Assembly (NCBI GenBank): GCA_017532885.1
Contig: JAFXIS010000075.1
Location: 1 to 64,000, forward strand
Direction of reading: 5' to 3'
From: Alistipes sp.
GTDB lineage: Bacteria; Bacteroidota; Bacteroidia; Bacteroidales; Rikenellaceae
DNA: 64,000 bases
A model generated the notes under the pieces. It worked only from the letters and a program-made list of their open reading frames with translations, did no database searches and was not told the origin of the DNA. Each line of letters starts with the position of its first letter. Position 1 is the first letter of the stretch. Positions 25,751-44,905 of this stretch are shown here, piece by piece. The position numbers and the translations under genes were made by a program.

Positions 25751-27307
25751 CTATCTTTTGGGATTCAAAACAATATACGGCACAATCATCTCCTCCATCG
25801 AGATGCCACCATGCTGGAAGGTATTTTTATAGTAGCGTATAAATCGGTTTGCATCGTTGTTATAGACCAGGAAATCCGAATTATATGCAAAGATATAGCT
25901 CGACGAGAGGTTTATGCGCGGCAACTGGATATCCTCGGGGCGCGTAACCTCATAGACCTCGCGGGCATTATACTGCAAGTTACGGCCCGTCTTATAACGC
26001 AAATTCGCCGAAGTCTCTCTATCGCCCGTAACCTTCACAGGATTATCCACGCGAATAGTTCCGTGGTCCGAAGTGATAATTACGGTATGACCCTGCTCGG
26101 AGAGCATCTTCAAAATCTCAAACAAATCCGAATGTTCGAACCAAGAGCGTGTAAGCGAGCGGAACGAAGCTTCATCCTCGGTGAGTTCTCGGATTATATC
26201 GGTTTCGGTGCGGGCATGCGACAGGATGTCAAGGAAATTATAGACTATAACCGAAAAATCGGCATCATATACGCGACGAATATTGTCGATAAGTTTACGC
26301 CCCGCCTCAGGGCGCACCAATTTGTCGAAAGTCCACTTATAACTCTTGCCACACGACGACAATTGACGACGCAAGAACTCCTCCTCGTATTGATTCTTAC
26401 CACCCTCCTCGTTATCGTTAAGCCACTTGTCGGGCATCATCTTATCAATAGCCAAAGGCATCAAACCCGCAAAAATCGAATTTCGGGCATATTGCGTAGC
26501 CGTAGGCAGAATGGCGCAATAGAAATCATCTACCGCCACATCGTAATAGTTATGCAACAGAGGATTTATCGCACGCCACTGGTCGTAGCGGAAGTTATCT
26601 ATCAGCAGCAGTGTAACCTTCTCACGCTTATCCGCCTCAGGAAAAATCTTTTTACGCATCAGCGTATGTGACATGACGGGAATCTCCTCATCCTCCACCC
26701 TGCGGTTAATCCAATTATAATAGTTGCGACGCACAAATTTACAAAACTCCTGATTCGCCTCGCTCTTCTGGTATGCCAGCACCTCACGAATACTCTGATC
26801 CGACGACTCCGACAACTCTATCTCCCAATTTGTCAATTTGCGATAAATGGCGCACCATGCCTGAAACGACGAGGCCATCTGGCACATCGAGGTAATGCGT
26901 CCGAACTCGGCACGATAATCTGCCGTAGTCTGCTCGGTGACGAGTTGTTGCTGATGTACATTCTTTTTTATCGACAGCAGCACCTGATTGGGATTAACCG
27001 GTTTGATGATATAGTCGGCAATCTTCGAGCCTATTGCCTTATCCATAATATTCTCCTCCTCCGACTTTGTAACCATAATCACCGGTGTCGTAGGTCGAAT
27101 ATCCTTTATCAGCGGCAAGGTTTCGAGGCCCGTCATTCCGGGCATCATCTCATCAAGGATAATAAGGTCATATGCCGTAGCACGCACCATATCAATGGCA
27201 TCATAACCATTATTGCATGTCTCGACATCGTAGCCCTTACCCTTAAGGAACAGCACATGAGGCTTCAAAAGTTCCACCTCGTCATCTACCCATAATATCT
27301 TTACCAT
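25751..27307 (-). CDS. porX: PorX-type response regulator with PglZ domain
   Basis: Response regulator that, in Porphyromonas and Flavobacterium, controls the type IX secretion system. The 518-residue protein has an intact receiver domain (acidic pair D8-D9, phospho-acceptor D52 in LDEMMPG, T80, K102), a helical linker to about 205, and a PglZ domain of the alkaline-phosphatase superfamily; PorX is a zinc phosphodiesterase acting on nucleotides. Metal-site segments LLIDNFRYDQW and TSDHGTIRV are visible. It is cotranscribed with tsaE and follows the Nudix gene by 14 bp. No por/gld genes are in the window, so presence of T9SS is inferred only from this gene. Confidence 0.93.
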   Translation of the reverse strand: MVKILWVDDEVELLKPHVLFLKGKGYDVETCNNGYDAIDMVRATAYDLIILDEMMPGMTGLETLPLIKDIRPTTPVIMVTKSEEENIMDKAIGSKIADYIIKPVNPNQVLLSIKKNVHQQQLVTEQTTADYRAEFGRITSMCQMASSFQAWCAIYRKLTNWEIELSESSDQSIREVLAYQKSEANQEFCKFVRRNYYNWINRRVEDEEIPVMSHTLMRKKIFPEADKREKVTLLLIDNFRYDQWRAINPLLHNYYDVAVDDFYCAILPTATQYARNSIFAGLMPLAIDKMMPDKWLNDNEEGGKNQYEEEFLRRQLSSCGKSYKWTFDKLVRPEAGRKLIDNIRRVYDADFSVIVYNFLDILSHARTETDIIRELTEDEASFRSLTRSWFEHSDLFEILKMLSEQGHTVIITSDHGTIRVDNPVKVTGDRETSANLRYKTGRNLQYNAREVYEVTRPEDIQLPRINLSSSYIFAYNSDFLVYNNDANRFIRYYKNTFQHGGISMEEMIVPYIVLNPKR

Positions 27308-30207: not shown

Positions 30208-30248
30208 TCGTCGGCTAAATATCAGACTATCAATAGTCTTTCATATAG

Positions 30249-30276
30249 GAGGTATTCTGCGGAATACCTCTTTTTT
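30249..30276 (+). terminator. Terminator of the S9 peptidase gene
   Basis: gaggtattc (30249-30257) and gaatacctc (30262-30270) form a perfect 9-bp stem with a tetraloop, followed by six T residues. Confidence 0.85.
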
Positions 30277-30375
30277 ATGCAATATACGCTTCGCTTTCGT
30301 TGATAAAAACCTGCATTTCATTGACAAAACCAACATATTCGTTGAATTTTTTTTCAGAAAAAATTGGCTTTATAT

Positions 30376-30383
30376 ACTTTTGT
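30376..30383 (+). promoter_or_regulatory. -7 element upstream of the fimbrillin-like gene
   Basis: TACTTTTG matches TAnnTTTG 73 bp before the ATG at 30457; a TTG-containing gttg at 30341-30344 is too distant, so only the -7 box is convincing. Confidence 0.45.
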
Positions 30384-30456
30384 GTCGTATCATGTGAAGT
30401 AGGCATTTACGCCATGATACCTATAAGTATAAATAGATAAGAATATAACCTCATAT

Positions 30457-32349
30457 ATGAAGTTAAAATTATACATTATCCTGACAATCTCGCTACTCTT
30501 TGCAGGTTGCATCAAAGAGTGGGGAGAGGTCGCAACCGACAAGGGTCCGGTTACCGTGGGTTTCTTTGCCGGTGGGGGGCCGACACGCACCACTATCAAT
30601 AGTGATGGCGTCAGCACCTCATGGAGCAAGGATGACAAGGTTGCTCTTTGGGCAATCAACTCCGAGGGTACAGCTACGCTCTCTGCACAGCCGTTCAAAA
30701 TCTACTATCGCGATGGCCAAAAAGCCTTATTTACAGCGACTTTGACGGCACCCATGGCAGCAGGCAGCTATAATTACTATGCCACATATCCCGTTCCCAA
30801 GTCGGTGAGTGGCACGCAGGCAAGCTTCACACTACCCGCCTCGCAGGACGGTCAAATTTCAAAAGGCGCAGCTATTATGATTGCCACCCCCGCTACGGGC
30901 TCACAGCTCGGCATTGTAACGGGCGAGCCTGGCGCAGATGACGCTTACGAAATTGATGATAACCACCTCTCTTTGAGGATGAAACACACGATGCACGCCC
31001 TTCGTTTCTTCGTTATGCAGAATCAATGGGGTTTTGCCGAGGGCGAAACAATTGAGCGTATTGTATTCACTATGCCTCAAACCGTTGCGGGCGATGTAAC
31101 TTTGGATTACACCAATCCGAGCAGTGCCCCCGCAGTTACTAATGGCGTGAATACCATGTCGTTAGACTTAGCGAGAAATATAGGTGCAACCACTTCGGCA
31201 GCCAACCCCGACTTCGCCGCCGCATCTATTATCCCCACCGCCGCATTCAACGACGGCGATGAACTCAAGATGAAGGTTTACTCTCAAAAACAGCTCGTTG
31301 AGCAGACTATTTTACTCGCAGGTCGTGAGGCTATGCTGGCAGGACATATTACCCCCGTAGCGATAGATTGCTCTTCGCCAAGAGATTTGCCCAAGATGTC
31401 ATTCCGCATCACTACCAACAATTTGGGTGAGCAGCCATATCGTATTACACTCACTTCGTCAGACTCGTCTACAAAGTGGAAAGAGAACGATGACCATATT
31501 TATGAGTATTATACAGGCTCTGAAAGTTCAACAATCGCAACGGGCAATGGTTTCGACATCTATTATGACGAATCTACAATTTCGAGCATTTCGGGCAAGA
31601 GCGTAACCGTAACCTACGAATCAAAGAGCGCAATTGTAACCAATTCAATTACAATGCCTTCGATGACCGCAGGCAACGACTACACAATTAACCTTACTGT
31701 ACCATATTTGTTCTTCGAGGATTTCAGCACTATTAACACTTATGGTTTTGATGTAGTGACAAACGCGCAAGGTACAGCAGTCACAGGTTACGACCTAAGT
31801 ATCGCCAATAGTGATAAAGATAATGTAAATCCCGGATTACGGTCTGGTTGGACAGGAGCACGAACAGGAGGAAGTGCAGGTAGTGCAATCCGCGTTGGCT
31901 CTCGCGTAGACCAAGTTTATGGATTCACACATACATTTGGTCGTTTAGATTCTCCAGCATTAAGTGGTCTAAAAAATGGAGCAAATGTAAAAATCAGTGT
32001 TTCTTTCAACTATAGTGGCGGTCGTGATGGTAGAAGCGAGTTTTCTCCGCGTGCTGTATTCGGATACACGACTACATCAGGACCTATAGATGGAACTACG
32101 GGATCATTTTCTTCAGACTCAGACAATTGGAAAGATATTAATGGATATACCTTAATTCCCTCTATATCCACCTCTGGCTCATTTACTAATATCACGCAAA
32201 GCATGACACATACGATTAGTAATTGCAATAACACATATCGACTTTCATGGCAGATTCGTGGAACAGGTAAAATAACAGGCTTTATTCAAGTAGGTAATGG
32301 TAATCAATGGATGTTTATAGACAACATCAAGGTTCAGATTGTGCAATAG
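30457..32349 (+). CDS. Fimbrillin-like surface lipoprotein
   Basis: A 630-residue lipoprotein (lipobox FAGC, Cys18). The N-terminal half, about 35-310, resembles the fimbrillin/Mfa-like family: TRTTINSDGVSTSWSKDDKV-type opening, the FTATLTAP and YYATYP segments, and a repeat-like second sandwich. In Mfa/Fim pili these domains polymerise by strand exchange after protease cleavage of a lipidated precursor. The C-terminal part, from about residue 420 (YLFFEDFSTINTYGFD), looks like a jelly-roll/carbohydrate-binding-like domain and is clearly more AT-rich than the first part. First gene of the 30.4-39.8 kb cluster, 65 bp ahead of the next. Confidence 0.65.
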   Translation: MKLKLYIILTISLLFAGCIKEWGEVATDKGPVTVGFFAGGGPTRTTINSDGVSTSWSKDDKVALWAINSEGTATLSAQPFKIYYRDGQKALFTATLTAPMAAGSYNYYATYPVPKSVSGTQASFTLPASQDGQISKGAAIMIATPATGSQLGIVTGEPGADDAYEIDDNHLSLRMKHTMHALRFFVMQNQWGFAEGETIERIVFTMPQTVAGDVTLDYTNPSSAPAVTNGVNTMSLDLARNIGATTSAANPDFAAASIIPTAAFNDGDELKMKVYSQKQLVEQTILLAGREAMLAGHITPVAIDCSSPRDLPKMSFRITTNNLGEQPYRITLTSSDSSTKWKENDDHIYEYYTGSESSTIATGNGFDIYYDESTISSISGKSVTVTYESKSAIVTNSITMPSMTAGNDYTINLTVPYLFFEDFSTINTYGFDVVTNAQGTAVTGYDLSIANSDKDNVNPGLRSGWTGARTGGSAGSAIRVGSRVDQVYGFTHTFGRLDSPALSGLKNGANVKISVSFNYSGGRDGRSEFSPRAVFGYTTTSGPIDGTTGSFSSDSDNWKDINGYTLIPSISTSGSFTNITQSMTHTISNCNNTYRLSWQIRGTGKITGFIQVGNGNQWMFIDNIKVQIVQ

Positions 32350-32414
32350 GATAATTAAAACGAAAACAAGATATTAATAAAAACACACTTTTTTTAACTA
32401 AAATTTTATAGGAC

Positions 32415-33191
32415 ATGAAACTTAGAAGTTTAACTCTGTGTGCCTTAGCCCTGGTAGGTTTAATGGCATGCAACGACAGCGACAACGCTGCCGACAAGGG
32501 TGCTGAGTCGGGTTATCTTACATTTTCGGTCGCAACCACCGACAATGTAGATAACATCACGACTCGCGCCGACAAAATTTTAATCAGCACGGCTGCGGGC
32601 TCAGGCTACACAGCTCCCGCTGATGCGGATTTCACAATCACCATCACCAACGAGGATGAGGAGCAGATTTACTCTGGCACCGTAGGCGCTTGGGATGCTG
32701 CAACCAAACTCGAAGAGGGCGCGTACAGCGTTTCTGCCGTTTACAACAACGGTGCCGTAGGCTTCAACTGCCCCGTATTCGAGGGTAAGGCGGATTTCAT
32801 TATCAAGGGTGGCGAAACTACCCCCGTTCAGATTCCCGTAAAGTTGATGAATGCCATTGTTCGTATGGAGTTCACTAACATGTTCAAGAACTACTATTCA
32901 TTCGAGAAGATTACGGTAACTTCACAGGGTACTGCCGTAGATTTCGCTGCTGACGAGACTCGCGGTGCGTTCATCCAGGCAACTACTTTCAAGGTTGAGG
33001 GAACTCTCACCTCGCAGGCGCAGGGCTCTTCAACAACCAAAACTTTCTCGAAGGAGTACACCGCAAAGCCTACTCAGTGTTACAGCCTCAAGTTCGATGC
33101 TTCGAACATTGGTGGCAACTCGTTCGACATCACATTCGGAGATGAGCCTACTGAGACTATCGATTGGGGAAATATCGACATCAACGAATAA
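32415..33191 (+). CDS. DUF4493-type lipoprotein
   Basis: A 258-residue lipoprotein, lipobox LMAC (Cys19). The mature part follows the DUF4493 pattern that I recognise from Bacteroidales: a beta-rich segment with DFTITITNEDEEQIYSG, WDAATKLEEGAYSVSAVYN, GFNCPVFEGKADFII and VKLMNAIVRMEF. DUF4493 proteins are predicted cell-surface beta-sandwich proteins of unknown function, often encoded in runs like this one. It is 65 bp after the fimbrillin-like gene and 29 bp before the next DUF4493 gene, all one strand, consistent with a single operon. Confidence 0.7.
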   Translation: MKLRSLTLCALALVGLMACNDSDNAADKGAESGYLTFSVATTDNVDNITTRADKILISTAAGSGYTAPADADFTITITNEDEEQIYSGTVGAWDAATKLEEGAYSVSAVYNNGAVGFNCPVFEGKADFIIKGGETTPVQIPVKLMNAIVRMEFTNMFKNYYSFEKITVTSQGTAVDFAADETRGAFIQATTFKVEGTLTSQAQGSSTTKTFSKEYTAKPTQCYSLKFDASNIGGNSFDITFGDEPTETIDWGNIDINE

Positions 33192-33220
33192 TTGTACACG
33201 AAAATAAAAACAAGAAAAAT

Positions 33221-34564
33221 ATGAAAAAATTATTTGCATTTGCATTCCTCGCATCGGCTTTGATGACATCATGTGCCGACGACTTTAAGTACAAGAGCGA
33301 GGAGCCTGGTTTCGGTACACTTTCGTTTGCCGATCTTCAGATTTCAGTAGATGATTCAGAGAATATCGTGCGTGCTACCGAGGCATCTGGTACATACCTT
33401 ATCACTGTTAAGAATGCGGAGGGTGCTGTATATGGCACATATACTTACAGCAACATCAAGGCTGAGGGTATTTCATTGCCCGCAGGAGTATACTCTTTGG
33501 AGGTTCTTTCAGCAGAGAGTGTTCCCGCAGCAGAGTTCGAGGAGCCCGTATATGGTGCGCAGGTTGAGAATATCACTATCACAGCCGGTCAGAAAACTCC
33601 TGTTGGTACAATCACTTGTACACTTCAGCAGTGTAAGGTAACCGTAGGTTATAACGACGACTTCTTGGCTATGGTTAAGGGTAACTGTACCACAACTGTA
33701 TCGATCGGTGAGTCTTTGGATTATAACATCGTATGGGATTCTACTAACTCAAAAATCTCAAAGTACGAGCAGTCAGCAGGTTACTTCAATGTAAACAATG
33801 GCGAGAACACCACAATGACAGTTAAGTTCAGCGGAGCTATCTACGACGAGGAGAGCGAGACTACAAAGGTTATGCGTATGACCAAGACTTTCACTGACAT
33901 CGCGGCAAAGCAGTGGCGTCAGGTTAAGTTCATCAAGAAGATTAACCAGGAGGGTAACGCAACTTTCGATATCGTACTTGACGAGTATGTTGAGGACAAC
34001 CCATTGAACGAGGACTTGACAGGCTCAGAGGAGTCTATCGGTACAGACCCCAACGCACCTAAGGGTGACGGTGGCATTAAGCTTATTTGCACCGAGGGTC
34101 CCGCAGCTGAGGTTATTACATCATGGAACGAGGCAGCTCAGACCGAGAAGCCTGTGATTGACTTGTCTGTAGACCAGAATATCTCTACATTAAAGTTCAC
34201 TGCCGAGATTCCTAATGGCGTTTATGAGTTCTATGTAGACATTACTTCTACAAATTCCGATTTCAACACAGCAGTTAAAGGTATTACAGTAAACAAAGAT
34301 GGTCGTATCTATCTTACAAAAACAGAGGAGGAGCACCGTAAGGTTATTGATGGCTTAAATTTATTGGGTATCGCATTCCCTTACCCTGAAAATGTTATCA
34401 ATAAGGCCGAAATTTTGTTTGATTTGACAAAAGCAATTCCTGCATTGCAGATGTATAGTGGTACTCATACTTTCGCAATGTATGTAACCGACACAACAGG
34501 CTGCAAGCATCAGGACGAAAGCGGTAAGACTAAGCCTATTAATCTTACTGTTGTTATCGAATAG
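33221..34564 (+). CDS. DUF4493-type lipoprotein
   Basis: A 447-residue lipoprotein. The ATG at 33221 gives a textbook signal peptide with lipobox MTSC (Cys18) and replaces a longer in-frame start at 33164 that overlaps the previous gene. Mature residues 25-270 show the DUF4493 plan: GTLSFADLQISVD, ISLPAGVYSLEV, EEPVYGAQVENITITAG, TLQQCKVTVGYND and a long WRQVKFIKKINQEG segment; residues about 300-447 form a second beta domain beginning GGIKLICTEGP. After the Cys comes ADDF, acidic as in surface-exported lipoproteins. It is 26 bp upstream of the PCMD gene. Confidence 0.65.
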   Translation: MKKLFAFAFLASALMTSCADDFKYKSEEPGFGTLSFADLQISVDDSENIVRATEASGTYLITVKNAEGAVYGTYTYSNIKAEGISLPAGVYSLEVLSAESVPAAEFEEPVYGAQVENITITAGQKTPVGTITCTLQQCKVTVGYNDDFLAMVKGNCTTTVSIGESLDYNIVWDSTNSKISKYEQSAGYFNVNNGENTTMTVKFSGAIYDEESETTKVMRMTKTFTDIAAKQWRQVKFIKKINQEGNATFDIVLDEYVEDNPLNEDLTGSEESIGTDPNAPKGDGGIKLICTEGPAAEVITSWNEAAQTEKPVIDLSVDQNISTLKFTAEIPNGVYEFYVDITSTNSDFNTAVKGITVNKDGRIYLTKTEEEHRKVIDGLNLLGIAFPYPENVINKAEILFDLTKAIPALQMYSGTHTFAMYVTDTTGCKHQDESGKTKPINLTVVIE

Positions 34565-34590
34565 TAAATAACCTACAACTGCCAAAAATT

Positions 34591-36552
34591 ATGAAAAAAT
34601 TAATATATACAGCACTCTGTGCAGGATTGATGTTTAGCATCAGTTCATGCCAGAAGGATTACACCGAAGGCACTGAAGCCGAAGGCGGTGTATCAATCTC
34701 AGCAAATGTTGAGGATGTTTTGGCTTCGCGTGCAATTGATGCCACAACATTGAAAAATACTGCACAAGTTAAGATTTATAAGCCGGCGTATGCAGGTTTG
34801 GCTCGTGAATATACCTATTCAGATATGCCCTCTGTGGTTTATTTGCCCGCAGGAAATGGCTATCGCGTAGATGTTGTTGCAGGTGAGCGCGTAAACGCTG
34901 CTCCCGCTATCGCATCATTCGAGAATAAGAGCTATAAGGGCTCAGCAACATTCGATGTAACAGCAGGTGTGGTAAACTCATCTCCTATCACTGTAAATGC
35001 TCAGATTTGCAATGCTATTACCAATGTAACTTTGGACGAGAGTATCGCAGAGGCTTTCAACGATGGTTATAAGGTTACTATCGGTCTTGACGGCAATAAC
35101 TTGGAGTATACCGCAGCAAACTCTGGTACAGATGGTTATTTTATCATCGACGATAACGCTTTGGATCCTAAACTCGCATGGACTTTCTCTGGTACCAAAA
35201 CAAATGGCGATGCCTTGACTAAGAGTGGTGAATTTGAGGTTGCTCAGGGCAAAAAGTACAAGATGAATCTTATCTATGTTGAGAAGAATGGTACTTTGAC
35301 CGTAACTATTATGGTTGATAAGAGCACTGATGACATCGACAATACGATTACATTCGATCCTACATCGGTAGGTATCAGCGCATCGAAGAAGTACGAGTTC
35401 TGGGCTACACATGCTACCGTACATGCAGATGTTGATTTGACTACTTATGATGAGAATGAGGTTTACTTCCAGTATAGAAAGCAGGGTACAGACGCATGGA
35501 CAAAATCTGCAGCTGCCACTAAGGTATCTGAGGATGGTGCGTTTGACGCTGTTTTGAGTGGTCTTACACCCGAAACCACTTACGAGTATCAGCTCGTCGT
35601 ATACAACAATGAGACCCAGGCAGAGGAGGAAGTTGACGGTGTAAGCACATTTACCACAGCTGCCGCATCTACACTGCCTAACTCAAGCTTTGAGGAGAAT
35701 TTTGTTGATGGCGATGGCTGTTCAAGATTCTACCCACAAGGTGGCTCAGAATGGTGGGATTGTGGTAACCAGAAAGCAATGGGAGTTGTTGTTAATATCA
35801 CAACCTCTACCACAGATGTTCCTAACCCCGATGCTATTACAGGTTCTTATCCTATCCCTGGCAACAGTGTAGCAGTTCAGATGGCATCACAGATGCAAGG
35901 TATTTCAGGACTTTTTGAGTTGCTTGGTGCCGGAAACTTGTATAGTGGAGATTATGGTGGTACTGACACTTCAGACCTTAGCAATCCTTCTGGTAAGGTG
36001 AAGTTCGGTCGTCCATTTACAGGTCGTCCTACTGCAATCCGCATGTATATGAAATACAATACAGGCACAATTGACATGGTTAAGAATAAGCCCGCAGGAG
36101 TAACAATTACTCAAGGCGTGACAATGGATAGAGCCCAGATTAAAGTTGCTTTAGGTGACTGGGATTACAATATCTATAAGGGTGATGATATCAGCCCCGT
36201 ACTTGCAAATACTGCCGATATGTCTACTATGGTAGATTACGCAGCAGATGGCGCTGCTCGTAAGGCGGGTGATGATACTAAGGGTACTATCGCATATGGT
36301 ACAGTTATTATCGACGGTGCAGGTCCTGTAACTATTAACGGCACTACATCTGAAAAGACATATTCTGACTATAACAGCTGGAATGTTTTGACTATACCTA
36401 TCGAGTACTACGATACAAAGAGCACTCCTACCCATATTATCGTATCATTTACAGCGAGCGCATGGGGTGACTACTTCACAGGTAGTACAAGCAGTAAGCT
36501 CTGTGTAGATGCCGTAGAGTTGGTATACGACCAGAATGTAATCGTAAAATAA
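34591..36552 (+). CDS. DUF4493 plus PCMD-domain lipoprotein
   Basis: A 653-residue lipoprotein, lipobox ISSC (Cys20). Three parts are visible: a DUF4493-like domain (about 30-255, with YLPAGNGYRVDVVAGE and FENKSYKGSATFDV), a fibronectin-III-like domain (about 275-360, ending TYEYQLVVYNNETQ) and a C-terminal PCMD (putative carbohydrate metabolism) domain beginning PNSSFEENF and ending GDYFTGSTSSKLCVDAVEL. The PCMD half matches the gene at 38194 (GDYFTGSSKSK). It probably binds glycans or peptidoglycan-like ligands at the surface, but this is inference. Ends 16 bp before a hairpin at 36564-36589. Confidence 0.75.
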   Translation: MKKLIYTALCAGLMFSISSCQKDYTEGTEAEGGVSISANVEDVLASRAIDATTLKNTAQVKIYKPAYAGLAREYTYSDMPSVVYLPAGNGYRVDVVAGERVNAAPAIASFENKSYKGSATFDVTAGVVNSSPITVNAQICNAITNVTLDESIAEAFNDGYKVTIGLDGNNLEYTAANSGTDGYFIIDDNALDPKLAWTFSGTKTNGDALTKSGEFEVAQGKKYKMNLIYVEKNGTLTVTIMVDKSTDDIDNTITFDPTSVGISASKKYEFWATHATVHADVDLTTYDENEVYFQYRKQGTDAWTKSAAATKVSEDGAFDAVLSGLTPETTYEYQLVVYNNETQAEEEVDGVSTFTTAAASTLPNSSFEENFVDGDGCSRFYPQGGSEWWDCGNQKAMGVVVNITTSTTDVPNPDAITGSYPIPGNSVAVQMASQMQGISGLFELLGAGNLYSGDYGGTDTSDLSNPSGKVKFGRPFTGRPTAIRMYMKYNTGTIDMVKNKPAGVTITQGVTMDRAQIKVALGDWDYNIYKGDDISPVLANTADMSTMVDYAADGAARKAGDDTKGTIAYGTVIIDGAGPVTINGTTSEKTYSDYNSWNVLTIPIEYYDTKSTPTHIIVSFTASAWGDYFTGSTSSKLCVDAVELVYDQNVIVK

Positions 36553-36563
36553 TTTGAACTACA

Positions 36564-36589
36564 CATGCCTCCCTGCATGGGGAGGCGTG
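36564..36589 (+). terminator. Hairpin between the PCMD gene and the barrel genes
   Basis: The core gcctccc (36567-36573) pairs with gggaggc (36580-36586), and flanking bases extend the stem with a wobble. It lacks a strong T-run, so it may be a weak attenuator inside the operon rather than its end. Confidence 0.45.
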
Positions 36590-36605
36590 CTTTAGCGTTT
36601 CTAAA

Positions 36606-37343
36606 ATGCGAAAATTGATTTTAACTATTGTAATGTTGTGCATTGCGGGCGTCTCGGGCGTCCGCGCACAGCGTTATGATCGAGGTTTCGACCTCAACTC
36701 CACAACTTTCATCGAAAAGGGAACATGGATGGTTGGTGGGCAAGTGGCCTACTCTACCCATTCAAACGACAACTACCGTTTCTTAATAATTGAAGGAATA
36801 AACTCCAATGGCTACCGTTTCTCGGTAAGTCCGTTGGCGTGCTATGCCATTCGCGACAATATGAGCATAGGTATGCGCTTCGCTTATGGACGAAACATGT
36901 TGCTTGTGAACTCGGCTCACATGAATATCATGGATACCGAAATCGATATTCGTGATTATTACAGCCTAAGCCACGACTTTACGGGCATGGTGGTATATCG
37001 TAACTATATACCCATCGGAAATTCGAAGCGTTTTGCTCTTTTCAACGAAACACAGTTTGCGCTGGGTTTTGGGGAGGCCAAGTTAATCAATGGACGCGAC
37101 ATAAACAGTGTCAAAGGCACTTACGAAGAGTCTATGAGCCTGAAATTGGGGTTAAACCCCGGGCTCATCGCCTTCGTTAATGACCACCTCGCCGTAGAGG
37201 TGAATGTGGGCATGTTGGGACTGCAATACAACACCGTAGACCAGATTCACAATCAGGTTTACAAAGGCAGTCGTGACGCCACACAACTCAACTTCAAAGT
37301 AAATATTTTTTCTATCGGCTTCGGGCTGGCTTACTACCTCTAA
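36606..37343 (+). CDS. Predicted outer-membrane beta-barrel protein, first paralog
   Basis: A 245-residue exported protein (Sec signal peptide cut after GVRAQ). The mature sequence alternates polar and hydrophobic residues in short strands with aromatic girdles (TWMVGGQVAYS, MSIGMRFAYGR, TGMVVYRNYIPI, FALFNETQFALGFG) and ends IFSIGFGLAYYL, a typical terminal strand with aromatic C-terminus. This supports an outer-membrane barrel of about 8-10 strands. It is a paralog of the next gene. Placement between two PCMD lipoproteins suggests it is part of the same surface assembly. Confidence 0.7.
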   Translation: MRKLILTIVMLCIAGVSGVRAQRYDRGFDLNSTTFIEKGTWMVGGQVAYSTHSNDNYRFLIIEGINSNGYRFSVSPLACYAIRDNMSIGMRFAYGRNMLLVNSAHMNIMDTEIDIRDYYSLSHDFTGMVVYRNYIPIGNSKRFALFNETQFALGFGEAKLINGRDINSVKGTYEESMSLKLGLNPGLIAFVNDHLAVEVNVGMLGLQYNTVDQIHNQVYKGSRDATQLNFKVNIFSIGFGLAYYL

Positions 37344-37352
37344 ACAACGGAT

Positions 37353-38174
37353 ATGATGAAGACTATACTAAAGACGATATTTCTCGGCATAGCCGTTTTC
37401 TTGATGACAGCAGTCTCGGCACAGGAGCAAGCAACCGAGCCCAAGCTAAAGAGAAAGGAGCAACCCACAATAGCTCTCGGAGCAGAGATTCCGCAAAATT
37501 CCGCGGGTAAGAAGCATCATCGTGGGCTGAAACAGCACCTCATCATTCCCAAAGGGGAATGGCAACTTGGTGCGCAGCTATCGCATGTGAGCCTTTCGAG
37601 TGACAACAGCGAATTTATGCTTCTGATCAACGGACTTGATGCCAACGCTTCGATTACAAAAATTGCCCCCTTCTTCGCATACTCTTATCACAACAATCGT
37701 TCGATAGGTATGCGCATTCAATACACCGCAGCATCGGGATATATCAACCAGGCAGAGTATGACTTGCTGGGCAATCTCGATGGCTCAATCGAGGATATAG
37801 GAGCCGAGCTTACAGCAATTCAAGCCTCGGTGTACCATCGCTCATATTTAGGTTTGGACAATAAGGGTCGCATAGGTGTTTTTGCCGACATCGCATTGAG
37901 CTATGCTAATCGCAAGAATGTATTTGCGTATAACGCCACTACCGAGAACTGTCACGCTCGCACGCATCAAGTGAAGCTGAGCCTGCATCCGGGTATTGTC
38001 GTCTTTGCGATGAACAATATCAGTACACATGTTTCGATGGGTATTGGAGGTGTGTCGTACAACCACACCAATCTACGCGAGAATGGCAAGACCATAGGTA
38101 CTCGCGACTACTCTCAAGCTAAATTCAAACTCGATATCATGGATATCAGTGTAGGACTTTCAATACATCTCTAA
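37353..38174 (+). CDS. Predicted outer-membrane beta-barrel protein, second paralog
   Basis: A 273-residue exported protein with a signal peptide cut near AVSAQ, then a basic linker of about 40 residues (KLKRKEQP, KKHHRG) absent from its paralog. The remainder aligns along its length with the previous gene: LIIPKGEWQLGAQLS against FIEKGTWMVGGQVA, NRSIGMRIQY against NMSIGMRFAY, HPGIVVFAMNN against NPGLIAFVNDH, and GTRDYSQAKFKLDI against GSRDATQLNFKVNI. It ends SVGLSIHL. A tandem duplication followed by divergence explains the pair; the basic linker may contact DNA, LPS or peptidoglycan, which is speculation. Confidence 0.7.
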   Translation: MMKTILKTIFLGIAVFLMTAVSAQEQATEPKLKRKEQPTIALGAEIPQNSAGKKHHRGLKQHLIIPKGEWQLGAQLSHVSLSSDNSEFMLLINGLDANASITKIAPFFAYSYHNNRSIGMRIQYTAASGYINQAEYDLLGNLDGSIEDIGAELTAIQASVYHRSYLGLDNKGRIGVFADIALSYANRKNVFAYNATTENCHARTHQVKLSLHPGIVVFAMNNISTHVSMGIGGVSYNHTNLRENGKTIGTRDYSQAKFKLDIMDISVGLSIHL

Positions 38175-38193
38175 ACCTTAAAAGTAACGCATC

Positions 38194-39798
38194 ATGAAAA
38201 GAATTTTACTTTTTACACTCCTTGCCGCACTCGTTTCGGGATGTATCGATAACGATTTGCCTCTCCCCGTTATTAAGCCTCGTATCGTATCGATGCAGGT
38301 GGAGGGCGCATCGGAGGTATACATCAACTCCGAGAAGCAGACCGTCGAAATTACACTCGAGGAGCAGACCGACATCCGCAATGTAAATATTAAGGAGGTG
38401 GTATTTTCGGATGACCAGACGCGTTCATCGTGGGAACTCACCGGCGAGCATGACCTCTCAAATAAATTGGCTGTCACGCTCAGCACCTATCAAGATTATG
38501 TGTGGACCATAACCACAAAGCAGCCTATTGAGCGCTATTTTACCGTTGCCGGACAGGTTGGAGCAAGTGAAATTGATGATGTGAACCTTCGTGCCATAAC
38601 ATATGTCACCGAAAATCAGAGCATCAGCAACATCACAATCACATCGCTAAAGTTGGGCCCTGCCGACATCACGACATACTCTCCTGCCATTGAGGATATC
38701 AGAAACTTCACACATGGCGCCGAGATTACCGTAACAGCACATGGTCGCAAAGAGCACTGGACACTCTATGTCGAGCAGACCTCTACCGTAGTAGAGATGA
38801 AATCCATTGACGCATGGACCGCTGTGGCATGGTTGCGTGCTTCGGGTATAGCCGAGCGTACCAATGGCTTCAAGTATCGCCAAAAGGGTGAGACAGAGTG
38901 GATTGACATCAGTGGAGATAAGCTCTCTATCGATGGAGGTGCATTCTCATGCTGTATTGAGAATTTGAAGCCCATGACCTCTTATGAGTGCTTGGCATAT
39001 AGTGGTGAAGATAGCACCGATATACACACCTTCACAACCGAGGAGGCTCGCCAGATGCCAAACTCAAGTTTCGATTTCATCAGCCACGATGAGGATAGTG
39101 ATTTCTATTCATTCTACGACCCTGCAGCGGCAATATTGGAGAATCAGTCAAAGTGGTGGGATTCAGGAAATAAGGGTTCTACTATCGGAGGCGCAAAATA
39201 TACCATCACAAACCCCGACGCCGAGGATAAGCAGGATGGTCGCTACTCGGTACGCCTTGAGTCAAAGAATGTTGTCGGCATAAAATTCGCTGCCGGAAAT
39301 ATCTTTGTCGGAGAGTTCGCCGGAGTTATCGGCACAAGTGGCGGTAAGGTTAATTTCGGACGCCCCTTCACGCTCCGTCCACGCAAACTTTCGGTATGGG
39401 TGAAGTACGAAAGCGGAGCTATTGATTGTTTGGACCAAACACCCGATAACGACCCCGTAAAGGTGGGAGATAATGACCGCGGACAGATATTTATCGCATT
39501 GGGAGATTGGGATTACCGCATATATGGAGGTACGCCCGAAAGCCCCGTATGTATCAATACCACCGACCGTAGCACTTTCTTCGACACTAAGAGCGAGGCT
39601 GTCATCGGTTATGGAAGCATCACTTTCGATAAGGACACCGATGGATGGATTCATGTTGAAATACCTGTCGAGTATACCTCAACATCGCGTCGTCCGACAC
39701 ACATCATCGTATCATGCGCATCAAGTATGCTGGGTGACTACTTTACAGGAAGCTCGAAGAGTAAGATGTGGCTCGACAAGATGGAGTTGGTGTACTAA
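38194..39798 (+). CDS. PCMD-domain lipoprotein
   Basis: A 534-residue lipoprotein, lipobox VSGC (Cys17), followed by IDND, acidic as in surface lipoproteins. An N-terminal DUF5018-like or Ig-like part (about 25-110, with MQVEGASEVYINSEKQTVEI-type strands) precedes a second small beta domain, a fibronectin-III-like segment (about 190-280) and a C-terminal PCMD domain from PNSSFDFI to GDYFTGSSKSKMWLDKMELVY. The last three parts parallel the gene at 34591. It starts 19 bp after the second barrel gene and is followed by the terminator at 39820-39860, which closes the cluster. Confidence 0.75.
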   Translation: MKRILLFTLLAALVSGCIDNDLPLPVIKPRIVSMQVEGASEVYINSEKQTVEITLEEQTDIRNVNIKEVVFSDDQTRSSWELTGEHDLSNKLAVTLSTYQDYVWTITTKQPIERYFTVAGQVGASEIDDVNLRAITYVTENQSISNITITSLKLGPADITTYSPAIEDIRNFTHGAEITVTAHGRKEHWTLYVEQTSTVVEMKSIDAWTAVAWLRASGIAERTNGFKYRQKGETEWIDISGDKLSIDGGAFSCCIENLKPMTSYECLAYSGEDSTDIHTFTTEEARQMPNSSFDFISHDEDSDFYSFYDPAAAILENQSKWWDSGNKGSTIGGAKYTITNPDAEDKQDGRYSVRLESKNVVGIKFAAGNIFVGEFAGVIGTSGGKVNFGRPFTLRPRKLSVWVKYESGAIDCLDQTPDNDPVKVGDNDRGQIFIALGDWDYRIYGGTPESPVCINTTDRSTFFDTKSEAVIGYGSITFDKDTDGWIHVEIPVEYTSTSRRPTHIIVSCASSMLGDYFTGSSKSKMWLDKMELVY

Positions 39799-39819: not shown

Positions 39820-39860
39820 AATAACCGCTGAAATCCGAGGATTTCGACGGTTATTTTTTT
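39820..39860 (+). terminator. Terminator closing the surface-protein cluster
   Basis: Arms 39820-39834 and 39841-39855 pair over 15 bases with a two-base mismatch, and end in a T-run (39854-39860). Confidence 0.75.
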
Positions 39861-41108: not shown

Positions 41109-43487
41109 ATGAAATTACACTATTTAGTTGTGGCATTTTCACTATTTGCCGTAACAGCTTGCGTTGATGAAGGATTCCGACTCGACGAAGTATCTAAAGA
41201 GGTAATGGTGGGCGGAGGAACCACCACCCTGCCGTTAGGTCACCTCGACAAGCAGAAATTGGGAGAATTTATCACAGTTGAAGATATCGAAGGCCTTACA
41301 ATTGATGCCAACGGAAACTACTCACTCTCGTTCGAGGGCGAAGGTGACAAGATTTCGATTGATGGCATCGACAACACATTCGATATTGAGAAGACGGTGA
41401 CAACATTCTCGACCAAGTATCCGGCCTTTAATATTACGGGCGATGCTCACATTATCAATCGTCCATTCTATATCACACCCAATTTCAAGGGTCTTGATAT
41501 CCCGTATGATACGCCAATTCCCATTCCTGCAGGCTATAGCGTTACGGCCGAGGAGGAGGGCAATATCAGCGAGCATTTGGAGTATACCGTACCCCACTAT
41601 CTCTCTGCTATCAAGCGTATCTATCTTAAGCCTCAAAAGGCTGGCGACAAGGGCGCCTGCATCGATATGAAATTCAAGTTCCTCGACCTCGCTGCAATCA
41701 ATGGCGGCGGCCACATCACTATGGAGTTGATGGCAAACGACGGCTACGAGCTCTATGGCAAGGATGGTCAAGCGTTGGAAGTTGTAGACCATCAGGGTCA
41801 CACCACCACATACCAAATTGCGAAGAATCAGGAGTTTGCTGCCGGCACCGAGGAGATTGAGTTTGTGGTATATGTTGCCAGCATCGCCAACGAGTCGGTA
41901 GTTGAGAACAATATTCTCTCTATCCCCGTTGAACTTGGCTATCATGTATCATTCGACATTACCACACGCGCCAATACGCTCAAACTGAAGGATACTCCCG
42001 AGCTTCATATGGATGCTGCACTTCAATACGAGGATGCCGACATCGTACTCAACGAGGTAGTACTTCTCGAGCATGGCTCATTCGATGGTGAGGCTACTAC
42101 AATCTCGTTCGATGACCTTCCCGAAGAGGTAAAGAGCATCAATCGAGTAAACTTCTCTGACCACTCGCCTATGCACCTGATGGCAGAGGGACTTGATTGG
42201 ATTGAGGACACTACCGCCGAGCATATCATCATCGAGGCACAGCTACCCGATTACCTCACGCTGCACGACGACCAACACCACGGTTACGATGCTGCGACAC
42301 ATACACTGCGCACAAACCTCAGTGATTTGCGTCACAAGATTGACATCAACCTCGATGCTCTCACATTCTCGGGCAATGGCTTGGAGCCGAAGAATGGCGT
42401 TTTGACATTGGATTTCACACCCGACATCGCTGCTTATATCGAAGCCGGCACCGAGGCGAAGCTCTCGACAATCCTACATGACGAGGAGATTGAGTTCTCG
42501 GCAGGTATTGATGCTACAACTCTCGAGTTGGTTAGCTTAGAGGGTAAAATCGCCTACCAGCACGAGGAGACGACCACTATCGAGATGGGTGGTATAGAAG
42601 AGGATATCGACCTTGCGATTAACCACCCGGGACTCTCGCCCATTATTACTATTAATGTTGAGAATCCGCTAACTTTGGATGCCCAGGTTTCTGCGTCACT
42701 TATTCCCGTTATCGATGGCGTTGAAATGGTTGAGAACATGGTCGAGATTAACAATATCGTTATTCCGGCAGCAACAATCGTAGGTGGCGAGGTTCTAAAC
42801 AATAACGCCACAATCCGCATCGTGGATGAGTCATTCGCGGGCGTACTCCCCGACGACGGAAGCCAAAAGATTAAATGCAACTTAGCAAATATACTCAAGG
42901 GAGATTTGCCCGACGAGGTTAAGCTCAACATGACCCTTTCGACCGATGGGAATACCGTTCACACTATTTACATCGCCGACAGCTACACAGCGAAATACAA
43001 CTACGATGTAAAGATTCCTTTGGAGTTCAACGATAAACTCGACATAGCAATCGAGGGTACGGTTGAAGACCTTGCCGACACTTTCGAGGAGCTGGAGGAG
43101 CAGGATATCTCGGTTGGAGATATCACTCTTATTGCCGAGGTATTTAACACTATTCCTTTGGATTTCTGCTTCGATGCCGAACTGCTGAATGCTCAGGGAG
43201 AGCCTACGGCTGTTAAGTTGGATATTCCGGAGTCAAACAATAAGATTGCCGGCTCTACCGACGGCTCAAGTGAGGCAAAATCTACACTGCGCATAGGTCT
43301 TAAATTAGGCAAGGACGGAAATCTTAACCAACTCGCCGATGTAGATGCCATCAGATTCAACCTCAAAGCTATGCGCTCGGCCGATGGTAGCGTAGCGCTC
43401 AACGCCGAGCAATATATCTATGCAAATGCAAAGATAGAGATTAAGGGCGGCATTAAGGTCGATTTAGATAAATTTCTCGAAGAATAG
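41109..43487 (+). CDS. Large lipoprotein of unknown function
   Basis: A 792-residue lipoprotein, lipobox VTAC (Cys18), then VDEG. I recognise no family. The protein is acidic, almost wholly beta-strand in character, and seems built of several similar sandwich modules with strands such as IELPLxFND and NNKI; short phrases recur (TLxLDF, IEFSAGIDATTL, EIDLAINHPGLSPIITINVENPL, the last given in outline). It ends with KIEIKGGIKVDLDKFLEE. Promoter 41040-41072 and the DUF5723 barrel-like gene 35 bp downstream suggest a two-gene unit: a large surface or periplasmic lipoprotein with its outer-membrane partner. Confidence 0.6.
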   Translation: MKLHYLVVAFSLFAVTACVDEGFRLDEVSKEVMVGGGTTTLPLGHLDKQKLGEFITVEDIEGLTIDANGNYSLSFEGEGDKISIDGIDNTFDIEKTVTTFSTKYPAFNITGDAHIINRPFYITPNFKGLDIPYDTPIPIPAGYSVTAEEEGNISEHLEYTVPHYLSAIKRIYLKPQKAGDKGACIDMKFKFLDLAAINGGGHITMELMANDGYELYGKDGQALEVVDHQGHTTTYQIAKNQEFAAGTEEIEFVVYVASIANESVVENNILSIPVELGYHVSFDITTRANTLKLKDTPELHMDAALQYEDADIVLNEVVLLEHGSFDGEATTISFDDLPEEVKSINRVNFSDHSPMHLMAEGLDWIEDTTAEHIIIEAQLPDYLTLHDDQHHGYDAATHTLRTNLSDLRHKIDINLDALTFSGNGLEPKNGVLTLDFTPDIAAYIEAGTEAKLSTILHDEEIEFSAGIDATTLELVSLEGKIAYQHEETTTIEMGGIEEDIDLAINHPGLSPIITINVENPLTLDAQVSASLIPVIDGVEMVENMVEINNIVIPAATIVGGEVLNNNATIRIVDESFAGVLPDDGSQKIKCNLANILKGDLPDEVKLNMTLSTDGNTVHTIYIADSYTAKYNYDVKIPLEFNDKLDIAIEGTVEDLADTFEELEEQDISVGDITLIAEVFNTIPLDFCFDAELLNAQGEPTAVKLDIPESNNKIAGSTDGSSEAKSTLRIGLKLGKDGNLNQLADVDAIRFNLKAMRSADGSVALNAEQYIYANAKIEIKGGIKVDLDKFLEE

Positions 43488-43522: not shown

Positions 43523-44905
43523 ATGAAAAGATTAATTTTTATTGCAATGTGTGTTGCTGCGTCGATGATTGGATTCTCAGCCTCGGCACAGATGCGTTCA
43601 TCATACTTCATGGAAGGTTCGTATTTCCGTACTGACCTCAACCCTGCACTCGCCCCCACACGCGGCTATGTCGCATTGCCGGGCTTGGGTGGTTTCGGCA
43701 TGAACATCAACAACAATTTCCTATCGGTCGATAACTTCTTCTACAAGAACGGCGATGAAGTAGTGACTGCACTCCACGAGTCGGTGTCGGCGGATAAGTT
43801 CCTCGGCAAGCTTCCCAACACAGGACGCCTATCGGCAAACCTCAACACAAACCTTTTGGGTGTAGGTTTCCATACCAAGAAGCATTTCTGGAATTTCGGT
43901 ATAAACTTGCGCTCAAACAATGAGATAACCCTATCGAAGGATATTTTCAAGGCGCTTAAGACTCTCGGAAACGGATATTACGACCTCAACAAGACCTCGC
44001 TTAGCTCGACATCGTTTGCCGAGATATATGTTGGTCACTCGCGTAAAGTCGTAGACCTTAAATTCGGACGACTCACAGCAGGTGCGCGCGTAAAATTCCT
44101 TGTCGGCTTAATGAATGCCTCTACGGAGATTGACCAGATGTATGCCAACATATCATCGGAGAGCGTTACGGCTCATCTTGAGGGTAAGATTCGCGCCAAT
44201 GGTCCTATCTTCGACCCTTCAAAGGTTATTGCCGGTAAGGAGTTCTCGGATGATGTAATCACCGACGATATCGAAATGATTCTCAACAATGTCAGCAACT
44301 TCGGTGCTGCTATCGACTTGGGAGCCGAGATGTCACTTCTGAATGACCGTTTGCGCGTTTCTGCAGCCGTTACCGACCTGGGATTCATCAAATGGTCACC
44401 CAAGACCCATATCGAGGCAGATGCTCGCGCCGACTTCTACTTCAACGGAGTCAATCTTGACACCGAGGAGGCAGATAGCGACGGTGATGCTAATGTATTG
44501 ATGACAAAGGTCAAGGATGCCGGCTACGCCACTCGTCTGAACTGCGCACTAAATTTGGGTGCCGAGTATAATGTTTTAGGCGACCGTATCGGATTCGGTT
44601 TGTTGTCACACACCGAGTTCTGCCAGATGATGACCTTCTCGGAGCTTACCGCTTCGGTGAACTTCCGCCCCTTGAATTGGATTTCGGCATCATTGAGCCA
44701 CACGCTCCTCAGCCACAATAAACTCGGAGTTTTCGGATTTGCGCTAAACATCCATCCTACGGGTGTGAACATATATTTAGGCGCCGACTACATCCCTACA
44801 AAGATGGTGAAGTACGAGAGTGCCTCTATCCCTTACAGCATGAAATCATTCAACATGTATATGGGTATCGGATTCAACCTCGGTAGAGCGAAGTCTCTGA
44901 AATAA
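43523..44905 (+). CDS. DUF5723 family predicted outer-membrane protein
   Basis: A 460-residue exported protein with signal peptide cut near ASAQ, then RSSYFMEGSYFRTDLNPALAPTRGYVALPG, summarised here as the conserved SYFMEGS and NPALAPTRGYV start of DUF5723. Following strands (FGINLRSNNEI, FAEIYVGHSRKV, LTAGARVKFLVG, LNLGAEYNVLGDRIGFGLLS) suggest an FadL/OMPP1-like barrel. Family function is unknown. It is 35 bp after the large lipoprotein and is followed by the strongest terminator in the window. Confidence 0.8.
   Translation: MKRLIFIAMCVAASMIGFSASAQMRSSYFMEGSYFRTDLNPALAPTRGYVALPGLGGFGMNINNNFLSVDNFFYKNGDEVVTALHESVSADKFLGKLPNTGRLSANLNTNLLGVGFHTKKHFWNFGINLRSNNEITLSKDIFKALKTLGNGYYDLNKTSLSSTSFAEIYVGHSRKVVDLKFGRLTAGARVKFLVGLMNASTEIDQMYANISSESVTAHLEGKIRANGPIFDPSKVIAGKEFSDDVITDDIEMILNNVSNFGAAIDLGAEMSLLNDRLRVSAAVTDLGFIKWSPKTHIEADARADFYFNGVNLDTEEADSDGDANVLMTKVKDAGYATRLNCALNLGAEYNVLGDRIGFGLLSHTEFCQMMTFSELTASVNFRPLNWISASLSHTLLSHNKLGVFGFALNIHPTGVNIYLGADYIPTKMVKYESASIPYSMKSFNMYMGIGFNLGRAKSLK

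Follow-up and report, generated by a model that had tools for sequence, protein, structure and literature searches.

A conserved operon of gut Bacteroidales that probably encodes a type V pilus-like surface fibre with its own barrel/PCMD membrane module

In a 64,000-nucleotide stretch of Alistipes sp. DNA (assembly GCA_017532885.1, contig JAFXIS010000075.1, positions 1 to 64,000 of the forward strand), hereafter the window, seven adjoining genes encode four pilin-type lipoproteins (genes 1–4), two predicted outer-membrane β-barrels (genes 5 and 6) and a further lipoprotein with a PCMD domain (gene 7). The present study suggests that this cluster belongs to a conserved operon of gut Bacteroidales, and it looks like a fibre builder: pilin-like lipoproteins with tips of a sugar-binding type, and small barrel proteins of the outer membrane that may assemble the fibre or keep it in place. 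Specifically, the operon probably encodes a type V pilus-like fibre at the cell surface together with a barrel/PCMD membrane module dedicated to it. The evidence consists of the gene order, operon signals from the comparison of loci, the protein families present, two predicted folds, conserved motifs and a strict pairing of the barrels with gene 7; surface location, cleavage and polymerization of the subunits are what we infer from these features. It is also possible, and we advance this tentatively, that the cluster represents a separate type V pilus branch, with a fibre of DUF4493 pilins that is anchored or assembled by an obligate membrane module made up of the barrel or barrels and the PCMD lipoprotein with its tail. 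We describe the cluster, known here from sequences and models alone, as working like a type V pilus and do not claim full membership. The initial annotation of this locus had guessed at a novel surface structure; the pilin-like fold sharpens that guess, and the structure now reads as a type V pilus-like fibre plus a barrel/PCMD module.

The family content of the cluster is as initially annotated. All seven open reading frames (ORFs) in the window's ORF list lie on the plus strand, span 30457–39798 and are separated by 9–65 nucleotides (nt). DUF4493 (PF14900) is matched by genes 2, 3 and 4 (E 9.9e-32, 5.2e-28 and 5.7e-30; 111, 98.8 and 105.3 bits) and PCMD (PF13201) by genes 4 and 7 (E 7.2e-26 and 3.5e-36; 91.8 and 125.6 bits), gene 4 thus carrying both; all five matches exceed the curated Pfam cut-offs of 27 bits for DUF4493 and 28 bits for PCMD. 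In their C-terminal halves, genes 4 and 7 align with 34% identity. The listed ORF of gene 3 starts at TTG 33164, the lipoprotein start is ATG 33221, and its Pfam query began one residue too early, at 33218. In a Pfam scan, none of the seven proteins matched a sigma factor or a glycosidase family, and no SusC or SusD family was found in these or in the next two plus-strand genes, in agreement with the initial annotation, though a GH92 enzyme does lie farther downstream.

The gene order is conserved among relatives. Contigs were scanned with 14 seed sequences, namely both window barrels and 12 of 120 listed homologs (478 in all), and the best 80 of 149 relatives were kept as loci, giving 81 sequences with the window included. 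Because the loci were picked by a barrel scan, a barrel is present in each by construction; they were annotated with models built from the window's proteins. Among the matches listed, Alistipes and other Rikenellaceae are the nearest relatives that bear a name. The exact order fimbrillin, DUF4493, DUF4493 with an additional C-terminal domain, DUF4493 plus PCMD, barrel, barrel, PCMD is found in 57 of the 81 sequences. In seven loci the cluster is truncated at a contig end (L005, L041, L045, L047, L064, L066, L073), and of the 74 sequences with room for the cluster 67 have the seven-gene order, six have a six-gene order and one (L048) contains all seven labels in an order that is not settled. 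Seven loci deviate from the exact pattern solely since their gene 1 also matches the DUF4493 model (L004, L006, L008, L009, L012, L039, L053); one has an additional gene upstream (L027), another a barrel 2 split between frames (L001), and a third shows the normal order once its coordinates are trimmed (L028). In the six-gene form (L038, L042, L049, L054, L056, L057), genes 1 and 2 are replaced by a single protein of 841–843 residues that matches DUF4493 and PCMD. Flanks differ across most loci while the gene order stays. Eleven further regions were taken from other genomes, and nine of these keep pilin-type genes, DUF4493 with the additional domain, DUF4493 plus PCMD, the barrel or barrels and PCMD; eight of the nine contain just one barrel, and in some the set is flanked on either side by additional DUF4493 genes. 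Of the remaining two, L088 contains DUF4493 genes only, the region having been cut around them and away from that genome's barrel match, and L089 contains two barrels and PCMD preceded by genes that the models do not recognize. Conserved synteny, which had been named in advance as a check, is therefore borne out. Two of the loci, L044 and L055, lie on one contig (DCHT01000052.1) as two cassettes in opposite orientation.

The barrels and gene 7 occur as a pair. In a survey of 393 genomes of the order of genome G001, strong barrel matches and strong matches to the N-terminal half of gene 7 pick out one identical set of 34 genomes and lie within 76 nt of each other in 33 of them and on different contigs in the other (G343). 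The strong cut-offs were placed after the score gaps had been seen (best barrel E ≤3.2e-52, next 3.1e-30; gene 7 N-terminal half ≤8.8e-50, next 5.3e-11); at E 1e-3 the barrel is matched in 44 of the 393 genomes and the gene 7 half in 68, and the ten genomes with weaker barrel matches were excluded from the 34-genome comparison. In three of these ten (G108, G198, G351) a weak barrel match and a weak gene 7 match also adjoin. Two barrel matches were found in 25 of the 34 genomes and one in nine; G354, counted with one, carries fragments of a second at the ends of contigs. Of these 34 genomes, 33 contain DUF4493; with the limit set at E 1e-3, DUF4493 occurs in 44 genomes, 34 with a barrel match (Fisher p 3.7e-31) and ten without. 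Directly past its lipid cysteine, gene 7 bears the tail C-x-x-N-D-[ILV]-P in 80 of the 81 sequences, a motif found in none of their genes 1–4, and C17, N20, P23 and P25 are invariant among 28 aligned members of the 81. A relaxed form of the motif is present in seven of ten gene 7-like proteins of the 11 further regions; its absence from the other three (L083, L086, L091) counts against a universal gene 7 tail.

The assignment of genes 5 and 6 as predicted barrels draws on several sources. They are paralogs with 27% identity, and the initial description of paralogous barrel-like proteins holds: OMP_b-brl (PF13505) is matched by five of the 14 rows of the barrel alignment, one NCBI name points to a barrel, and both proteins have alternating segments, whose counts (16 and 17) are too loose to set a strand number. 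The two window proteins themselves have no Pfam match, and comparison of the barrel profile with the PDB yielded no credible relative, only two weak CymA rows at E 0.7. The idea that the barrels are outer-membrane anchors fits their strict pairing with gene 7, and anchoring itself is putative.

The structural evidence for pilin-type subunits comes from models of genes 1 and 2, genes 3 and 4 being assigned through the DUF4493 family. The model of gene 2 resembles type V (FimA/Mfa) pilins with low template modelling (TM) scores, and DUF4493 is thus predicted to have a type V pilin-like fold; strands 236–241 and 244–250 of this model fall in its low-confidence C-terminal end (block predicted local distance difference test scores 68, 61 and 51). 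The N-terminal part of gene 1 is predicted to adopt a fimbrillin-type fold and its C-terminal part is modelled as a jelly roll of the carbohydrate-binding module (CBM) type. Gene 1 of the window matches no Pfam family at E 0.01; among 60 members of its ortholog alignment 20 match Mfa_like_1 (best 5.4e-15) and five weakly match CopC (best 0.00094), so that its designation as fimbrillin-like has held up. No credible relative emerged when the PDB was searched by sequence with genes 1 and 2 or with the alignments of each, and the fold evidence is therefore structural. A profile comparison of DUF4493 with gene 1 (probability 93.5, E 2.4e-7) was set aside as proof of homology, because the match spans the first 137 columns, signal peptide included. 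The predicted gene 1 jelly roll and the gene 4 PCMD domain would be extra C-terminal domains of binding type, as in tip pilins. The proposal that PCMD acts as a lectin draws on the family and its jelly-roll fold, and binding is putative.

The four pilin-type lipoproteins carry an enriched Arg/Lys motif that is a putative processing site. A lipobox pattern is recognized in genes 1–4 in 63 of 68, 68 of 69, 75 of 75 and 76 of 77 sequences and in gene 7 in 76 of 81. Once sequences without a recognized lipobox were left out (5, 1, 0, 1 and 5 for genes 1, 2, 3, 4 and 7), [ST][RK][AST] was found 8–60 residues past the lipid cysteine in 57/63, 61/68, 58/75 and 60/76 of genes 1–4, against shuffle means of 12.2, 14.2, 11.8 and 15.0, whereas gene 7 has it in 10/76 against a mean of 11.4 and so shows no enrichment; since the sequences are related, this comparison is not a significance test. 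A single aligned R/K column is occupied in genes 1, 2 and 3 (62/63, 63/68 and 74/75); in gene 4 the best R/K columns fall elsewhere. Gene 7 also has no pilin family match in Pfam. The 841–843-residue protein of the six-gene form has LRS or LRN where the Arg site sits. As to a partner protease, clostripain (PF03415), a widespread family, is encoded in all 16 cassette genomes and also in four of 14 control genomes; gingipain (PF01364), present in one of the 16, was dropped. At least two acidic residues just past the cysteine occur in 44/63, 29/68, 43/75, 38/76 and 31/76 of genes 1, 2, 3, 4 and 7, too weak a pattern to claim a lipoprotein export signal.

Comparative signals indicate that the seven genes very probably form one operon. 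In 61 of 67 loci the element TAnnTTTG, which we take to be the −7 promoter consensus of Bacteroidota, is present no more than 100 nt upstream of gene 1; over the same distance it is rare upstream of genes 2–7 (0/68, 1/75, 3/77, 1/80, 4/81 and 6/81). The pattern is frequent across the 64-kb window (64 matches vs 40 expected). Median intergenic gaps across the loci are 3–28.5 nt. Of the two features put forward initially, the single transcription unit is supported and the terminator at its end is confirmed; a consensus terminator scan overlooked the hairpin at 39820–39855. A terminator-like hairpin at 30247–30272 lies between the cluster and the upstream S9 peptidase gene. The gene 1 leader contains a perfect 8-bp inverted repeat with 18-nt spacing (30387–30420, plus strand). 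It was dropped as a candidate switch or operator, the other listed loci lacking the same repeat upstream of gene 1; a few have different short repeats there.

Table 1. Features of the seven-gene cluster and its transcription signals in the window
Feature	Position	Strand	Description	Basis
TAnnTTTG element	30375–30382	+	upstream of gene 1	
Gene 1	30457–32349	+	lipoprotein; predicted fimbrillin-type fold (residues ~27–308), then C-terminal jelly-roll domain (~414–630); tip-subunit candidate	model
Gene 2	32415–33191	+	DUF4493 lipoprotein, a bare pilin-like domain; stalk-subunit candidate	Pfam, model
Gene 3	33221–34564	+	DUF4493 lipoprotein; additional C-terminal domain, kind unassigned	Pfam
Gene 4	34591–36552	+	DUF4493 + Fn3-like + PCMD lipoprotein; tip-subunit candidate	Pfam
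Gene 5	36606–37343	+	predicted outer-membrane β-barrel, ~245 residues	homolog alignment, segment alternation
Gene 6	37353–38174	+	predicted outer-membrane β-barrel, paralog of gene 5	pairwise alignment, segment alternation
Gene 7	38194–39798	+	PCMD lipoprotein; CxxND(I/L/V)P immediately past signal peptide; no enriched Arg/Lys site	
Intrinsic terminator	39820–39859	+	8+7 bp interrupted stem (39820–39855), T tract	z −2.34 for 151-nt stretch

Several neighbouring genes were also noted. Downstream on the plus strand lie a 792-residue protein that starts with a lipobox-like sequence and matches no Pfam family (41109–43487), a DUF5723 protein next after it (43523–44905, E 1e-84) and the GH92 family enzyme (45130–47433, Pfam E 1.1e-143), 5.3 kb from the cluster; models of the first two match only one and two of the 81 sequences, respectively. 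Two genes upstream of the S9 peptidase, on the minus strand (25751–27307), is a response regulator fused to a PglZ domain, an architecture that we presume to be PorX-like.

In the available text of PMC12632263, type V pilins start as surface lipoproteins that are cut near the N-terminus, in Bacteroides by a surface clostripain; in Porphyromonas gingivalis, according to the available text of PMC5954841, Rgp cuts the pilins, Mfa1 at Arg49. In these accounts, a C-terminal strand from the following subunit fills the groove so freed, an extra binding domain is often present at the C-terminus of tip pilins, and the anchor retains its lipid (PMC12632263, PMC5954841). By the same route, genes 1–4 would reach the surface as lipoproteins and an Arg/Lys-specific surface protease of the clostripain type would cut after the conserved Arg/Lys, removing the lipid and the first strand, so that the exposed groove could accept a C-terminal strand from the following subunit by donor-strand exchange. 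Gene 2, being a bare pilin domain, is the candidate stalk, and genes 1 and 4 with their jelly-roll domains would be ligand-binding tips. Gene 7 would keep its lipid and, together with the barrels, make up the constant part in the outer membrane, a module for anchoring the fibre or aiding the delivery of its subunits. The upstream subunits vary by lineage while gene 7 and the barrels stay constant, as would be expected of a fibre with diversifying tips on an unchanging base. Several options may be compatible with these data as to which subunit forms the stalk, whether a long fibre or a short stack is built, and whether the barrels serve in anchoring, export or assembly.

The same proteins could instead be surface glycan-binding lipoproteins that do not polymerize, with the pilin-like domains as spacers, the jelly rolls binding glycans and the barrels passing oligosaccharides, as part of an uptake or sensing system free of SusC/SusD. 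The presence of PCMD and CBM-type jelly rolls agrees with this reading, as does a GH92 gene that comes right after the cassette in two loci (L002, L003) and after one intervening gene in two others (L010, L011). BT2081, the PCMD structure in PDB 3hbz, is presented in the available text of PMC2954218 as a possible carbohydrate binder or hydrolase from polysaccharide utilization loci (PULs), and that text describes it and several paralogs in SusC-bearing PULs. However, the model of GH92 is matched in only six of the 81 sequences, the cluster has neither SusC/SusD nor a glycosidase of its own, and enrichment of the Arg/Lys motif is seen in the four pilin-type proteins but is absent from gene 7; we consider a glycan-binding system unlikely.

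Alternatively, the barrels and gene 7 could be an export device that flips or passes pilin-type lipoproteins across the outer membrane, the fibre proper being built from genes 1–4. The obligate barrel/gene 7 pair, its near-constant company of DUF4493 and the conserved tail right past the gene 7 lipid cysteine would all suit such a device, but ten of the 44 DUF4493 genomes have no barrel, which argues that these proteins are usable without one, and the barrels are small (about 225–250 residues when mature, as judged from ORF lengths), so that this function seems quite improbable. The clustering might also reflect common descent of adjoining surface-protein genes with no joint function, since upstream S9, Nudix and PglZ-regulator genes recur in 19, 14 and 13 sequences, window included. 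This is contradicted by constant order within variable flanks, by the single promoter and by the identical genome sets of barrel and gene 7, and we regard it as highly improbable.

The type V pilus-like fibre proposed here gives DUF4493 a fold and a role, links PCMD domains to fibre tips and opens to experiment the question of how the outer membrane retains a type V fibre or serves as its site of assembly; if the proposal is true, such a fibre would here have a dedicated barrel component. Among the open-licence papers searched, none names DUF4493, "PCMD domain" or PF14900, and a link between DUF4493 and pilins may already have been published in other papers or be recorded in the clan data of Pfam. 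Since the barrel/gene 7 module occurs in 34 of 393 genomes and the cassette in records not labelled as metagenome-assembled genomes (Alistipes montrealensis, L027; Alistipes sp. An66, L033), laboratory testing is possible.

Among known systems, a Sus-type PUL differs in having the SusC/SusD pair, absent here from the seven proteins and the next two plus-strand genes. Genes 4 and 7 match the PCMD family (BT2081, 3hbz; also 4het, 4jrl and 3s30) in their C-terminal halves, but here two PCMD proteins sit with pilins and barrels rather than in SusC-bearing PULs. Chaperone-usher pili, whose operons encode a fibre, its tip adhesin and a barrel of the outer membrane, are alike by analogy; unlike them, the cluster has no chaperone or usher family in a Pfam scan of its seven proteins, and its subunits are lipoproteins with an N-terminal strand that is presumably removable. 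With type V pili (the FimA and Mfa1 fimbriae of Porphyromonas and the pilins of Bacteroides) the cluster shares lipoprotein precursors, a pilin-like fold in the modelled subunits, an Arg/Lys site past the first strand and candidate tip subunits with extra C-terminal domains. To our knowledge, classical fim/mfa operons are without barrels. The word barrel does not occur in the available text of PMC5954841. In contrast to these pili, Pfam identified no pilin-fold anchor among the seven proteins of the cluster, DUF4493 replaces the FimA/Mfa1 stalk families, and the operon includes one or two barrels and a PCMD lipoprotein.
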